From NCBI RefSeq assembly GCF_014235875.1, contig NZ_JACJUK010000005.1, positions 1-64,000 on the forward strand: a stretch of DNA of 64,000 nucleotides, in the 5' to 3' direction. Under the pieces are notes generated by a model. That model was not told the DNA's origin. It made no database searches and worked only from the letters and a program-made list of their open reading frames with translations. Position 1 is the first letter of the stretch. Every line of letters starts with the position of its first letter. Below, in pieces: positions 58,161 to 64,000 of the stretch. This DNA is from Croceivirga lutea (GTDB lineage Bacteria; Bacteroidota; Bacteroidia; Flavobacteriales; Flavobacteriaceae). A program made the translations under genes and the position numbers.

Positions 58161-60743
58161 ATGAATATTTTTTCAGTGGTTTGGCGATTAGGGTCAAAAA
58201 TAGCAATACTATTTCTTGCAATAGCAATGTTTTCTTGCAACGCTGTTAAAAAAGTGCCAGAAAATGATGTCTTACTTACCAAAAACAACATAAATATTGA
58301 TGGTGAAAAAGAGTCTGACGAACTGATTGAAAACCTAATTTTACAAAAACCCAACACTAACGTATTGGGATATCCTTTACGATTAAACATTTACAATCTA
58401 GCTAAAGAAAACCCAGATTCTTTATATCAAGCGTGGTTGCAAAAAAAAGACAAAAGAGAAGAAAGACTCAATAGTTTTCTATCGCAAAAACAAGTTAAAA
58501 GATTAGGAGAATCTTTTATAGTGCGCGGGTATAGTAATTTGTTTAAGAGAATTGGTGAGCAACCAGCCATATTAGACACCTCTAAATCAAGAAAATCAAC
58601 AGAACGTTTAGCAGCTTATTACGGCAGTAAAGGATACTTTAACGCCACCGCTGATTATGAAATATCAGGCACCAAAAAACCACAACGAGTAGAAGCAAAT
58701 TATACCGTTATTAAAGGCAAGCCTTATTATATAGATTCTTTACAAACCAGCATAGATTCAAAAGATTTAGATAGTTTATATAGAAAATATAAAAATGATT
58801 CATGGGTAAAAGAAAACCAACAGTTCAATTTAGAAAATTTCAATAATGAACGCCAACGGCTTACCAATTTATTTAGAAACAATGGTATCTACAATTTTCA
58901 AGAAAGTTCTATTACATATACCATTTTAAGAGATACAACACAGGTTGCAGATGACCAAAAGTTAGAAGTAGAAATGGTGATAAAAAACCCGTCTAGTAAC
59001 ACTACTGAACAAAGCTCCAAACCTTATACCGTTCATAAGTTTAATAAAATTAATATTTATACTGATTATAGCTTTGATACACAAGAAGACTCTCTTAAAT
59101 CAGTGGAATATGATGGCTACACTATTTTTTATGAAAACAATTTAAAATATAAACCCAAAGCTTTAACAGATGCTGTTTTTTTTGAAATTGACAGCGTTTA
59201 TAGTGATTTAAATAGAACCCGTACGTTACGTCAAATCACCAATTTAAACACATTTAAGTATCCCAGTATACAGTTCGAAGCTGATAGCACTACCTCAAAA
59301 CTTACTTCTAATATTTTTTTAGCGCCAAGACCTAAAAATTCACTGCAGTTAGATTTTGATGTATCTAGGTCAGATATTCAACAAATAGGCGTTGGACTAA
59401 GTTCATCAATCACCACTAGAAATGTTTTTGGTGGCTCAGAAACCCTTAGTTTATCGTTAAGAGGCTCAGTAGGTATTTTAGACGAACCCATTTCTGATGA
59501 AAACTTTACCTCCGAAATAGGTGCAGATATCAATCTAACATTTCCAAGAATTTGGCTACCGTTTAATACTGAGACTATTATACCCTATTATATGACGCCT
59601 CAAACACGATTTTCTGTAGGTACTAATTTTCAACAAAATGTTGGTTTAGATAGGCAATCACTAAACTCTATTTTAAGCTACAACTGGACTCCTTCAAATT
59701 TTGTAAAAAACACCTTTGAGTTACTTAATATAGAATTTGTACGAAACACAAATACAAATGCTTTTTTTAGAGAGTACAGTTCTACCTACTCACGTTTAAA
59801 CAACATAGCTAGTAGAACTGAGTATACAAGCTTAACAGGTTTTGACGAATACTATGATGATGAAAACAACTTAAAAATTCCAGATGGTGCCGATGACTTT
59901 ATAGCTGCGGTAACCGCTGATAATTTTAGTCTAAGTTATGATGGTTTTAAAGAAGACCTAAACGATATTGAAAGTATTGCAGAACGTAAACAAAGACTTA
60001 CTGAGAACAACCTAATTTTTGCTTCAAATTTTGTTTATCAGAAAAATAACCGGACAGATATTAATGATAATGAGTTTTATCAATTTAACATCAAATTTGA
60101 AAGTGCGGGTAATTTTCTATCACTTGCTGAAAATATAATACCATTTAACCAGAGTGATACCGGTAAAGGTTTAGTTTTTGGTGTTCCTTATTCACAATAC
60201 CTCAAAACAGAATTAGACTACATCAAACATTGGGATTTTAGTAACTCAAACGTACTTGCATTTAGGAGTTTCTTTGGTATAGCTATACCTTACGGCAATT
60301 CTGAAAGCATACCATTTGTTCGAAGTTATTTTGCAGGTGGCTCCAATGATAATAGAGCATGGAATGTTTACTCATTAGGGCCAGGAAGAACTAATAATGA
60401 AAATGATTTTAACGAAGCAAACCTAAAAATTGGTTTAAATCTAGAGTATCGATTTCCATTATTAGGAGATTTTAAAGGAGCTATTTTTGCAGATGCTGGT
60501 AATATTTGGAATGCTTTTGATAACGTAAATGACCCCGATGCCACATTTAACGGATTGTCATCATTAAAAGATATTGCACTTGGTACGGGTTTTGGCCTTC
60601 GATATGATTTTACCTACTTTGTTATTCGCCTAGATACTGGGTTTAAAACCTACAATCCTGCACTTTCAGATTCAAATCGTTGGTTTTCAAATTTCAACCT
60701 TAGCGAAGCAGTTTTCAATATAGGTATCAACTACCCTTTTTAG
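58161..60743 (+). CDS. tamL: Translocation and assembly module lipoprotein TamL (BamA/TamA family)
   Basis: The 860-residue protein begins with a lipoprotein signal (AMFSC, Cys26) rather than the plain signal of TamA. POTRA-like modules follow at about 35-350 (YYGSKGYFNATADYEISGTK, FRNNGIYNFQESSITY). A C-terminal 16-strand Omp85 barrel runs from about 390 with the lid-lock region FAGGSNDNRAWNVYSLGPGR (VRGF-like) and LNLEYRFPLLGDFKGAIFADAG, as in Bacteroidota TamL. TamL works with inner-membrane TamB in outer-membrane assembly; no tamB is adjacent here. It is divergent from the TrmH gene. Confidence 0.92.
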   Translation: MNIFSVVWRLGSKIAILFLAIAMFSCNAVKKVPENDVLLTKNNINIDGEKESDELIENLILQKPNTNVLGYPLRLNIYNLAKENPDSLYQAWLQKKDKREERLNSFLSQKQVKRLGESFIVRGYSNLFKRIGEQPAILDTSKSRKSTERLAAYYGSKGYFNATADYEISGTKKPQRVEANYTVIKGKPYYIDSLQTSIDSKDLDSLYRKYKNDSWVKENQQFNLENFNNERQRLTNLFRNNGIYNFQESSITYTILRDTTQVADDQKLEVEMVIKNPSSNTTEQSSKPYTVHKFNKINIYTDYSFDTQEDSLKSVEYDGYTIFYENNLKYKPKALTDAVFFEIDSVYSDLNRTRTLRQITNLNTFKYPSIQFEADSTTSKLTSNIFLAPRPKNSLQLDFDVSRSDIQQIGVGLSSSITTRNVFGGSETLSLSLRGSVGILDEPISDENFTSEIGADINLTFPRIWLPFNTETIIPYYMTPQTRFSVGTNFQQNVGLDRQSLNSILSYNWTPSNFVKNTFELLNIEFVRNTNTNAFFREYSSTYSRLNNIASRTEYTSLTGFDEYYDDENNLKIPDGADDFIAAVTADNFSLSYDGFKEDLNDIESIAERKQRLTENNLIFASNFVYQKNNRTDINDNEFYQFNIKFESAGNFLSLAENIIPFNQSDTGKGLVFGVPYSQYLKTELDYIKHWDFSNSNVLAFRSFFGIAIPYGNSESIPFVRSYFAGGSNDNRAWNVYSLGPGRTNNENDFNEANLKIGLNLEYRFPLLGDFKGAIFADAGNIWNAFDNVNDPDATFNGLSSLKDIALGTGFGLRYDFTYFVIRLDTGFKTYNPALSDSNRWFSNFNLSEAVFNIGINYPF

Positions 60744-60758
60744 ACCTGAATTATTTAT

Positions 60759-60766
60759 TACTTTTG
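60759..60766 (+). promoter_or_regulatory. -7 element TACTTTTG before fbaA
   Basis: TACTTTTG matches TAnnTTTG exactly and lies 29 bp before the ATG at 60796. A clear -33 TTTG is not seen. Confidence 0.45.
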
Positions 60767-60795
60767 TTGCTTAATTTTAACGAAACCAACTTAAA

Positions 60796-61863
60796 ATGGC
60801 ACATAACATCAAGCCAGGTGTTGCTACCGGCGATCAAGTTCAAGAGATTTTTAAACTAGCAAAAGAAAAAAGTTTTGCATTACCAGCAGTAAATGTGATT
60901 GGTACCAATACAATGAATGCTGTTATGGAGACTGCAGTGGAATTAAACGCCCCTGTGATTATTCAGTTTTCTAATGGTGGCGCACAATTCAACGCAGGTA
61001 AAGGTCTTTCAAATGAAAACCAAAAAGCAGCAATTTATGGCGGTATTGCGGGTGCAAAACATGTACATGAAATGGCAAAAGCCTATGGTGCAACTGTAAT
61101 TTTGCATACAGACCATTGTGCTAAAAAATTATTACCCTGGATAGATGGTTTGTTAGATGCCAGCGAAGCACATTACAAGGCTACAGGCGCTTCTTTATAT
61201 AGTTCTCATATGATTGATTTATCAGAAGAACCATTAGAAGAAAATATAGAAATCTGTAAAAAATATTTAGAGCGCATGTCTAAGATGGACATGACATTAG
61301 AAATAGAACTTGGTGTTACTGGAGGTGAAGAAGATGGTGTAGATAATACAGATATTGACAGCTCAAAATTGTACACACAACCAGAAGAAGTAGCCTATGC
61401 TTATGAAGAGTTGTCTAAGGTAAGTCCTAAATTTACCGTAGCTGCAGCCTTTGGTAATGTTCATGGGGTATATAAGTCAGGTAACGTAAAACTTACACCA
61501 AAGATTTTAAAGAACTCTCAAGAATTTATTTCTAACAAATATGGTGTAGGCCATAATCATATTGATTTTGTTTTCCATGGTGGTTCGGGTTCAACTGTTG
61601 AAGAAATAAGAGAAGCTATTGGGTATGGTGTAATTAAAATGAACATTGATACAGATTTGCAATATGCATTCATGTCTGGTATAAGAGATTACGTTCAAGT
61701 AAATAAAGATTATTTACAAGCTCAAATAGGTAATCCAGAAGGTGCAGATGTACCAAATAAGAAAAAATACGATCCAAGAGTTTGGTTACGTGAAGGTGAA
61801 AAAGCATTCGCAACACGTTTAAAACAAGCTTTTGAAGATTTAAACAACGTAAACACACTGTAG
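60796..61863 (+). CDS. fbaA: Class II fructose-bisphosphate aldolase
   Basis: The zinc enzyme cleaves fructose 1,6-bisphosphate in glycolysis and condenses triose phosphates in gluconeogenesis. The 355 residues are typical of the FbaA type. Zinc ligands and catalytic residues lie in LHTDHCAKKLLPW (two His region), EIELGVTGGEEDGVD, AAAFGNVHGVYKSGN and FVFHGGSGST; MNIDTDLQYAFMSGI binds substrate. It precedes accD by 17 bp. Confidence 0.97.
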   Translation: MAHNIKPGVATGDQVQEIFKLAKEKSFALPAVNVIGTNTMNAVMETAVELNAPVIIQFSNGGAQFNAGKGLSNENQKAAIYGGIAGAKHVHEMAKAYGATVILHTDHCAKKLLPWIDGLLDASEAHYKATGASLYSSHMIDLSEEPLEENIEICKKYLERMSKMDMTLEIELGVTGGEEDGVDNTDIDSSKLYTQPEEVAYAYEELSKVSPKFTVAAAFGNVHGVYKSGNVKLTPKILKNSQEFISNKYGVGHNHIDFVFHGGSGSTVEEIREAIGYGVIKMNIDTDLQYAFMSGIRDYVQVNKDYLQAQIGNPEGADVPNKKKYDPRVWLREGEKAFATRLKQAFEDLNNVNTL

Positions 61864-61880
61864 TAACCAAATTTTGATTC

Positions 61881-62756
61881 ATGACAGCTTGGTTTAAGAG
61901 AAAAGAAAAAGGAATACAGACTTCTACAGAAGAAAAAAAAGACACACCCAAAGGGTTGTGGTACAAATCTCCAACAGGAAAAATTGTAGAATCAGAAGAT
62001 TTAGCAAAAAACTTTTATGTAAGTCCTGAAGATGATTACCACGTTAGAATAGGAAGCAATGAATATTTTGAAATCTTATTCGATGCTAAATACAAAGAAT
62101 TGGATGAAAAATTAACAGCCAAAGACCCTTTAAAATTTGAGGATACAAAAAAGTATACTGATAGATTAAAAGCAGCCAAAGCAAAAACAGGATTAAATGA
62201 TGCTGTTCGAACAGCTGTGGGCAAATCTATGGGTAAAGATTTAGTAATCGCCTGTATGGATTTTAGTTTTATTGGCGGTTCAATGGGTAGTGTTGTTGGT
62301 GAAAAAATAGCCAGAGCTATTGATTATGCTAAGAGAAGAAAACTTCCTTTTTTAATGATTTCTAAATCTGGTGGTGCTAGAATGATGGAGGCAGCTCAAA
62401 GTTTAATGCAAATGGCTAAGACTTCAGCAAAACTTGCTCAATTAGCAGAGGCTAGAATTCCATATATTTCGTTATGTACAGACCCAACAACAGGTGGTAC
62501 AACAGCATCTTACGCAATGTTAGGAGACATAAATATCTCTGAACCAGGAGCTTTAATTGGTTTTGCTGGCCCGCGTATTGTAAAAGATACTACAGGTAAA
62601 GAATTACCAGAAGGTTTTCAAACAGCAGAATTCGTAAAAGAACATGGCTTTTTAGACTTTATAGTTCACAGAAGAGATTTAAAGAAAAAAGTTAACCTGT
62701 ATATAGATTTAATTACAAATCAACCCGTACGAAGAGTAGAAGAGCCTGTTGAATAA
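61881..62756 (+). CDS. accD: Acetyl-CoA carboxylase carboxyltransferase subunit beta, without zinc ribbon
   Basis: AccD with AccA transfers carboxyl from biotin to acetyl-CoA, the first step of fatty acid synthesis. The 291-residue protein has the crotonase-like core: [60 protein letters not shown] and [13 protein letters not shown]. The N-terminal domain aligns with E. coli AccD ([20 protein letters not shown]), but the four zinc Cys of the usual CxxC...CxxC are replaced (SPTG, SPED) and there is no Cys in the first 110 residues. This appears typical of flavobacteria as far as I recall. It may share a transcript with fbaA. Confidence 0.95.
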
Positions 62757-62770
62757 ACAGGCTTTTTTTT
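62743..62770 (+). terminator. Intrinsic terminator overlapping the accD stop
   Basis: AGCCTGTT (62743-62750), loop of five, AACAGGCT (62756-62763), then seven further T's. The stem includes the last sense codons of accD. Confidence 0.9.
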
Positions 62771-62801
62771 AAAGAATATTATGTACTCATAGAAAAAGAA
62801 C

Positions 62802-62809
62802 TATCTTTA
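62802..62809 (+). promoter_or_regulatory. -7 element TATCTTTA before rpsO
   Basis: TATCTTTA matches TAnnTTTG except for its last base. It places the transcript start near 62814-62816, so the leader is about 50 nt and starts inside or at the hairpin at 62813-62834. Confidence 0.5.
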
Positions 62810-62812
62810 CGC

Positions 62813-62834
62813 CCTGATTTTTAGCTAAATCAGG
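62813..62834 (+). promoter_or_regulatory. Leader hairpin at the 5' end of the rpsO transcript
   Basis: CCTGATTT (62813-62820) and AAATCAGG (62827-62834) form a perfect 8-bp stem with a 6-nt loop, 29 nt upstream of the S15 start codon. The site may be a S15-binding autoregulatory structure or a simple stabiliser. It is too close to the promoter to be a terminator for accD, which has its own. Confidence 0.5.
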
Positions 62835-62863
62835 TACATAATAATCATTTTAATAATATTGGC

Positions 62864-63133
62864 ATGTATTTAACCAAAGAAGTAAAAAAAGAAATTTTCA
62901 AGAAACACGGGGGCTCAGAAGGCAACACCGGTTCAACAGAAGGTCAGATTGCGTTGTTCACGCACCGTATCAACCATTTGACGCAACACTTAAGACAAAA
63001 CCATAAAGATTACGCTACAGAGCGTTCTTTAGTGGCATTAGTAGGTAAAAGACGTAGTCTTTTAGATTACTTAAAGAAAAAAGATATTGCAAAATACAGA
63101 GCTTTAATTAAAGAGCTAGGTATCAGAAAATAA
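62864..63133 (+). CDS. rpsO: 30S ribosomal protein S15
   Basis: The 89-residue protein is full length. It has the S15 signature LTKEVKKEIFKKHGGSEGNTGSTEGQIALFTHRINHLTQHL (in part: STEGQIALFTHRI, HLTQHLRQNHKDYATERSLV, KRRSLLDYLKKKD). It binds the central domain of 16S rRNA early in 30S assembly. It precedes pnp, the common rpsO-pnp order, but a terminator and a separate promoter-like element lie between. Confidence 0.98.
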   Translation: MYLTKEVKKEIFKKHGGSEGNTGSTEGQIALFTHRINHLTQHLRQNHKDYATERSLVALVGKRRSLLDYLKKKDIAKYRALIKELGIRK

Positions 63134-63140
63134 AAATTTT

Positions 63141-63169
63141 GGGGAGGCTTTAGCTTCCCCATTTTTTTT
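63141..63169 (+). terminator. Intrinsic terminator of rpsO
   Basis: GGGGAGGC (63141-63148) pairs with GCTTCCCC (63153-63160) allowing one G-T pair, loop TTTA, followed by A and eight T's. Confidence 0.88.
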
Positions 63170-63208
63170 GCTTTTTCAATTAAAAAGTAATTTTAGTCCT
63201 GAAATTCG

Positions 63209-63216
63209 TAATTTTG
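63209..63216 (+). promoter_or_regulatory. -7 element TAATTTTG before pnp
   Basis: TAATTTTG is an exact TAnnTTTG match. Transcription would start near 63222, giving a leader of about 115 nt before the pnp ATG at 63338. Confidence 0.5.
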
Positions 63217-63270
63217 GGCAACACAAAAAGCTACACTTAGTTTTTCATTGGTCTACACACAACAACACAA

Positions 63271-63323
63271 CCCTATTGCCAGGACGGCAAAGACCAAATG
63301 TTTAATTAATCCCAACAATAGGG
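63271..63323 (+). promoter_or_regulatory. Structured pnp leader with two mutually exclusive pairings
   Basis: CCCTATTG (63271-63278) can pair with CAATAGGG (63316-63323), an 8-bp long-range stem ending 14 nt before the ATG. Alternatively TTGCC (63276-63280) pairs with GGCAA (63286-63290) around AGGAC. The two pairings share TTG (63276-63278), so they exclude each other. PNPase is known in E. coli to control its own mRNA through the leader; here this is a guess from structure. Confidence 0.45.
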
Positions 63324-63337
63324 ATACATTTTAATTT

Positions 63338-64000
63338 ATGATTCCAAAAACTTTTAAAGAGGTCATAGACCTAGGTGATGGTAGAGAAATTTCTATCGAA
63401 ACCGGAAAATTAGCAAAACAAGCACATGGCTCTGTAGTAGTTCAATGTGGCAAAAGCATGTTGCTTTGCACCGTAGTTTCTAACTACCACGCAGCAGATG
63501 TTGACTTTTTACCTTTAACAGTAGACTATCGAGAAAAATTTGCCGCTGCAGGTAGATATCCAGGTGGTTTTTTTAAGCGTGAAGCTAGACCAAGCGATGG
63601 TGAAGTATTAACCATGCGTTTAGTAGATCGTGTTTTAAGGCCCTTGTTTCCAAAAGACTATCACTCAGAAACACAGGTGATGATTCAATTAATGTCTCAT
63701 GATGAAGACGTTATGCCAGATGCTATGGCTGGTTTAGCCGCATCTGCTGCGCTACAGCTATCAGATATTCCTTTTGAATGTGCAATTTCTGAAGTACGCG
63801 TTGGCCGTGTTAATGGTGAATTTGTTATCAATCCATCTTACAAACAATTAGAAGAATCAGACATTGATATGGTTATTGGTGCCTCTGCAGATTCTGTAAT
63901 GATGGTTGAGGGTGAAATGAGCGAGATTTCTGAAGAAGAAATGGTAGAAGCTATCAAATTTGCTCATGAAGCTATTAAAGTTCAATGTGCCGCTCAGACC
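63338..64000 (+). CDS. pnp: Polyribonucleotide nucleotidyltransferase (PNPase), 3' partial
   Basis: The 221 visible codons run off the window end with no stop. The N-terminus [28 protein letters not shown] (in part) begins the first RNase PH-like domain. [42 protein letters not shown] (in part: [35 protein letters not shown]) is the conserved core, and the start of the all-helical linker is reached. PNPase degrades RNA 3'-5' by phosphorolysis. Confidence 0.97.

Follow-up and report, generated by a model that had tools for sequence, protein, structure and literature searches.

A conserved structured RNA leader upstream of pnp in Flavobacteriaceae and its putative role in autogenous control of PNPase

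PNPase, the product of pnp, is a main RNA-decay enzyme, and leaders of its gene have been described in other bacteria. The Actino-pnp RNA is located upstream of pnp, as its name implies, and in E. coli, where the gene rpsO precedes pnp, an autoregulation acting through the pnp leader was reportedly described by Jarrige in 2001 and by others. Actino-pnp (RF01688) is given in Table 1 of PMC2864571 as a conserved, structured, cis-regulatory RNA of Actinomycetales named for pnp, and going by that table it is the closest named RNA to the element presented here. The account of E. coli autoregulation in PMC10362022 has, in outline, PNPase digesting an RNA that protects its own mRNA and also binding the mRNA. 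For flavobacteria a leader of the S15 gene is described, with rpsO as the sole gene given for it in that description (PMC7247131), and 64 structured 5' regions, some of them conserved in the family, are reported from Flavobacterium psychrophilum (PMC9723704); the terms pnp, rpsO and PNPase are absent from the main text of the latter and pnp may be in its Table S7. Among the records listed in searches of the open-access literature there was no paper on the control of PNPase in Bacteroidota or on a flavobacterial pnp leader.

The stretch of DNA that was analysed (the window) comprises 64,000 nucleotides of Croceivirga lutea, and all its features below lie on the forward strand. It contains an S15-Flavobacteria leader, RF03161, at 62802–62866 (63.5 bits with cmscan, gathering score 46.5), which belongs to rpsO and is outside the pnp element, followed by the open reading frame of rpsO, encoding ribosomal protein S15 (62864–63133, TIGR00952), a terminator-like hairpin with a T run 3' of rpsO (63140–63169) and the open reading frame of pnp, which starts with the ATG at 63338 and continues beyond the window (63338–64000). 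The full gene, read past the window end, gives a product of 746 aa with TIGR03591 (polynuc_phos) and RNase_PH, KH_1 and S1 domains. In the family, rpsO is at most 450 nt 5' of pnp in 138 of 139 leaders. Comparison of these leaders indicates that the region ahead of pnp is, close to certainly, a conserved cis-acting RNA, and the folded leader probably lets the cell control the amount of PNPase made. An Rfam search of 63216–63337 gave no family at E≤1 and none at gathering score, and the covariance model of RF03161 had no match within 63216–63340; sub-gathering Rfam matches in the window and in the leaders of relatives (L20_leader, sraA, Arrc11, MicX and others) were taken as chance.

The element consists of a hairpin, PA, followed by a helix, P1 (CAUUGGUC/GACCA..UG), around a loop that is poor in G and has CAACACAAC at its end. 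Two further hairpins that covary, P2 and P3, are optional, and another, P0, lies upstream. Hairpin PA (63226–63245, with 63226–63233 paired to 63238–63245) was placed from folds and alignment, and P1 from folds, covariation and pair probability, its 5' strand CATTGGTCT at 63246–63254 pairing with its 3' strand AGACCAAATG at 63291–63300. The A/C-rich loop at 63255–63275, defined by conservation and folding, holds CAACACAAC at 63263–63271 and is predicted to be single-stranded there, with an unpaired probability of 0.99–1.0; in its 5' portion A accounts for 54% and C for 33% of the letters, with G at 3%. Identity to CAACACAAC is 97–100% at all nine positions among 131 of the 139 leaders, which had been picked for at most one mismatch per motif, CAACACAAC included, and from which all per-position identities of the loop and P1 were taken. 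The pair probability of P1 is 0.93–1.0 in five segments of the window folded at 10–42 °C. That of PA is 0.86–1.0 in three segments and, in two longer ones, 0.6–0.99 and 0.39–0.79, being lowest at 37–42 °C; the drop in the longest segment arises because the sequence GCTTTTT at 63170–63176, just 3' of the rpsO terminator and complementary to the AAAAAGC of PA ending at 63231, can take the PA 5' strand.

In a covariance-model alignment of 101 rows, which includes one chance second match in one leader (L156), 95.6% of the cells are paired, the pair columns of PA reaching 96.8–98.6% and the outermost pairs of P1 being the weakest with 87%. When P1 and PA were analysed together, two-sided changes were found in seven pairs, amounting to 39 such cells compared with 6.3 in shuffled and 1–6 in slid versions, and among the inner pairs of P1 U-A is replaced by G-C in 13 rows and C-G by U-A in 13 rows. 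An alignment of this kind is fitted to the structure, so that its pair counts favour the structure, while the arm-swap tests described below are independent of it. As a whole the leader of the window is only modestly more stable than shuffled sequences (z -1.9 for 63216–63367, with 9 of 200 shuffles as good, and z -3.3 for 63222–63345, with 0 of 200). A pseudoknot between the loop and UUGUUUAA was considered by eye and set aside, the loop being retained in leaders where UUGUUUAA has diverged.

The leader is present in all 11 genomes of the genus, and a pnp match was found in 193 of 199 sampled genomes of the family. The 139 leaders comprise those of the 11 genus genomes, 29 family loci and 99 loci hand-picked from about 120 other places (100 were picked and one, at a contig edge, was dropped); the weakest pnp matches are outside this set, and 18 of them entered later solely through a match to the covariance model R1. 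Within 80 nt, TTTTCATTGG followed by CAACACAAC, with at most one mismatch in each, occurs in 131 of the 139, and a stricter set of three motifs in 119, compared with 2 of 1390 shuffles. R1 was built from 26 sequences and finds the window at 63224–63305 with 68.8 bits (E 2.6e-8 in its own genome), as the single match in that genome at E≤1. At the same threshold it recovers 78 of 78 and 57 of 61 leaders, that is 135 of 139, or 109 of 113 when the training rows are left out. Of the four that were missed, L109 and L132 look degenerate and L092 and L136 appear by eye to be a variant with a shifted P1, with CAACACAAC still inside; in L092 this P1 appears as TAATTCATTG/CAATGAATTA. A further leader, L074, matches R1 only as two weak pieces because 168 nt sit inside its P1 loop. 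This insertion lies between the 5' half of P1 and the A/C loop with its following 3' half, each of these being retained, and it makes a natural test of the element.

Searching whole genomes with R1 under stricter filters gave a match at E≤1 in 162 of the 199 family genomes (147 of the 165 of good quality), of which 149 are below 0.01 and 13 at or above 0.1, where chance matches occur; one genome among the 13 (G161) is without any pnp match. Second, weak matches appear in some genomes and the one inspected, L178 with E 0.0475, lies away from pnp. In contrast, pnp follows all 26 further R1 loci that were examined, of which one, L154, coincides with the already sampled L115. Together with the 131 leaders these 26 make up a set of 157. 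At the level of the order, 16 of 196 genomes (30 within the family and 166 outside) match at E≤0.1 and at the level of the class 2 of 198, all of them Flavobacteriaceae. Taken alone, the lack of R1 matches in other families carries little weight, because the model misses diverged members of the same family, 14 of the 30 at E≤0.1, with 11 of 17 missed in one genus (g128). The pnp places of 30 genomes of other families (29 with pnp) were therefore also read directly: TTTTCATTGG, with at most one mismatch, is found before 0 of 30, and CAACACAAC alone, with the same tolerance, at 3 of 30, one of the 30 places being a contig-end fragment. In a collection of 84,980 genomes an exact 22-base pattern occurs at 117 loci or more, and among the 117 listed 114 immediately precede pnp in the same orientation, while the sequence of the other three ends 30–98 nt past the match. 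The 80 record titles among the pattern matches listed are, as we take them, mostly Flavobacteriaceae genera or wider Bacteroidota labels.

Several observations were made in passing at these loci. A contig labelled Candidatus Rokubacteria (L221:1437–1472) carries the element with the end of rpsO and the start of pnp, both gene parts being Flavobacteriaceae-like, and its label is probably a binning error. In another locus (L133:267–338, minus strand) a Flavo-1 RNA, RF01705, was found upstream of the pnp leader element with 61.7 bits, above gathering. By eye, L072 and L131 were seen to contain possibly mobile repeats that read GATTGCCAC...CGCAATGACA, of which L031 and L095 have a variant. In one genome (G148) the two pnp matches, C39 and C95, are nearly equal, representing a duplication or a mixed assembly.

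A covarying RNA structure is thus tied to one gene, as expected of an autogenous leader, and the single target gene fits autogenous control, which predicts that. We put the probability that the element is a leader for autogenous control of PNPase at roughly 0.5. The comparison shows that PA and P1, with the optional P2 and P3, present a single strand rich in A and C, with CAACACAAC at its end, a short way upstream of the start codon of pnp, and that pairing and loop letters alike are retained. According to this proposal the loop would be a putative binding site for PNPase, as the ligand, via its KH and S1 domains, and PNPase in surplus would repress its own mRNA at the level of translation or stability. 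It is also possible, with a rather smaller chance, that this pnp-linked RNA is read by another factor, such as ribosomal protein S1, an RRM/KH protein or the ribosome itself at a translation standby or enhancer site, since general single-strand binders could plausibly land on an unstructured A/C loop and the start codon follows the core at a distance of 15–76 nt in 119 measured leaders. A general factor would however be expected at other genes too, and pnp is the next gene in 114 of 114 listed loci with a visible gene.

Upstream of the core the window has a plain P0 hairpin (63196–63219, from folds, 9 bp or 10 bp long according to the segment folded), the pair probability of which varies between 0.52 and 0.98 with segment and temperature. 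When the arms of GTC-type P0 hairpins were swapped among 20 leaders, 1 of 2000 permutations was as good. The sequence CTC-N5-12-GAG is situated ahead of PA in 55 of the 157 leaders, where its loop pairs with sequence 3' of GAG, giving a mean Watson-Crick helix of 4.13 compared with 3.05 when permuted (maximum 3.45 of 2000) and at least 5 bp in 19 of 55 leaders compared with 7.4% of swapped pairs. The contrast shrinks when G-U pairs are allowed (at least 5 bp in 42% of own and 23% of swapped pairs), and in the first pseudoknot scan the null was sizeable, 9.3% of shuffles reaching a score of at least 21 compared with 51 of 131 real leaders. From the stem and loop lengths we infer that in a subset of relatives P0 may be replaced by an H-type pseudoknot, the alternative being two exclusive hairpins. 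Hairpins in series, with such a pseudoknot in some relatives, could also constitute a 5' stability element, in which PA and P1, together with P0 in its hairpin or pseudoknot form, would shield the pnp mRNA from decay with no feedback involved, but this is unlikely, as it leaves the strong conservation of the single-stranded CAACACAAC unexplained.

The hairpins 3' of the loop are missing from many members of the family, P2 as well as P3. In the window P2 is formed by TTGCC-AGGAC-GGCAA at 63276–63290, assigned from folds and arm swap, and its middle pair has a probability of at least 0.99 in window segments at 10–42 °C. The arm swap gave a score of 14.4 for own and 10.5 for swapped arms in 58 leaders, with 0 of 2000 permutations as good and own arms above the mean of the swaps in 53 of 58, and among the 59 leaders in which P2 inserts of at least 14 nt were measured 56 fold better than their own shuffles. 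P3, with ATCCC/GGGAT at 63309–63325, likewise from folds and arm swap, has a pair probability of 0.44–0.98 depending on the window segment, and its own arms score 15.7 compared with 10.5 for swapped arms in 89 leaders (none of 2000 permutations doing as well; own arms above the mean of the swaps in 76 of 89). The region of P3 folds better than its own shuffles in 81 of the 82 leaders of sufficient length, the other 49 of the 131 being too short or P3 not being located in them. P3 fits a loose scan for terminators, a reading which was rejected as no uniform T run could be seen by eye 3' of P3 in relatives.

That the conserved unit is a DNA element, a promoter or an operator, is very improbable. 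The letters of TTTTTCATTGG are highly conserved, in leaders preselected for the motif, but compensatory changes are found in P1, P2 and P3, and the flavobacterial -7 promoter motif is not enriched upstream, being present in 7 of 131 leaders where 8.4 are expected. The sequence TAATTTTG at 63209–63216, in the loop and 3' arm of P0, is what we take to be a perfect flavobacterial -7 consensus, and on the same counts its reading as a promoter was dropped.

The original prediction for this leader was a two-state switch in which bases 63276–63278 join either the local TTGCC/GGCAA hairpin or an 8-bp pairing next to the start codon, possibly under control of PNPase or temperature. Both pairings are exact, TTGCC at 63276–63280 with GGCAA at 63286–63290 and CCCTATTG at 63271–63278 with CAATAGGG at 63316–63323, with 63276–63278 common to the two, and the local stem is P2, conserved with compensatory change as described above. 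The 8-bp arm is near the start codon, as proposed, but it ends 14 bases 5' of the ATG at 63338 and leaves the start codon uncovered. In the other 10 of the 11 genus genomes CCCGACCG stands at the site of the 8-mer and its complement is absent downstream, and among the 91 of 157 leaders long enough for the comparison the window alone has the 8 bp. Among shuffled tails 0.8% also give a match of at least 8 bp between the two regions, which is unremarkable for a pairing chosen by eye. When the 8-bp state was forced in four segments of 124–231 nt at 10–42 °C it was 2.6–6.1 kcal/mol worse than the best fold, with pair probabilities of up to 0.0053 and no more than 0.6%, and forming it would disrupt P2 and P3, two hairpins that covary among relatives. 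Since the 8-bp pairing is predicted to be less stable, is restricted to the window among the leaders compared and would break P3, the proposed switch reads as a coincidence of this one genome, the two helices not being a mutually exclusive conserved pair when the alternative exists in the window only. Temperature fares no better as a signal: no sharp change is predicted, P1 and P2 being predicted as formed with a probability of at least 0.93 throughout 10–42 °C, and the start region, rather than melting over the physiological range as in an RNA thermometer, opens gradually in these folds, the mean unpaired probability of positions -20 to -1 rising only from 0.39 to 0.56. The two-state switch proposed for this pair of stems, driven by PNPase or temperature, is thus hardly credible, both complementarities being present but the 8-bp partner being confined to one of 11 genus genomes and one of 91 leaders and energetically disfavoured. 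What stands of the prediction is a structured and probably regulatory leader with PNPase as a plausible controller; the two-way switch, its 8-bp partner being unique to the window among the leaders compared, is not supported.

Returning to autogenous control by PNPase, the route taken may differ from one that begins with RNase III. Such a route, which calls for a long double-stranded stem, looks unlikely because the helices predicted in the window are short, 9–10 bp at most, although P3 grows to 13–14 bp in some relatives. A more specific form, put forward tentatively and with somewhat less than even confidence, is a separate PNPase feedback that would be independent of RNase III, in which P1 and P2 hold the fixed CAACACAAC strand to be read by the KH and S1 domains, with a hairpin or H-type pseudoknot upstream, the whole being conserved among Flavobacteriaceae and linked to pnp. 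A leader of family-wide occurrence with a well-kept single-stranded site, and without an Rfam family, provides a defined RNA for probing how PNPase recognises RNA, and feedback by PNPase outside Proteobacteria and Actinobacteria becomes directly testable.

Compared with the described systems, the flavobacterial element sits upstream of pnp as Actino-pnp does (114 of the 117 loci listed, three ending early), and the covariance model of RF01688 has no match at E≤1 in positions 60000–64000 of the window or in the leaders of 17 relatives. RF03161 is likewise a structured leader of the same rpsO–pnp pair, one gene upstream, and differs in its position, matching outside the pnp leader. With the E. 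coli pnp leader the element has in common that rpsO stands before pnp and that PNPase acts on its own leader, an action described for E. coli in the source cited above and presumed here; in contrast to that outline, the best-kept feature in flavobacteria is a single-stranded A/C loop. The best reading, as far as the cited accounts of Actino-pnp and E. coli pnp extend, is that the flavobacterial pnp leader differs from both and yet would be the same kind of PNPase-control leader.
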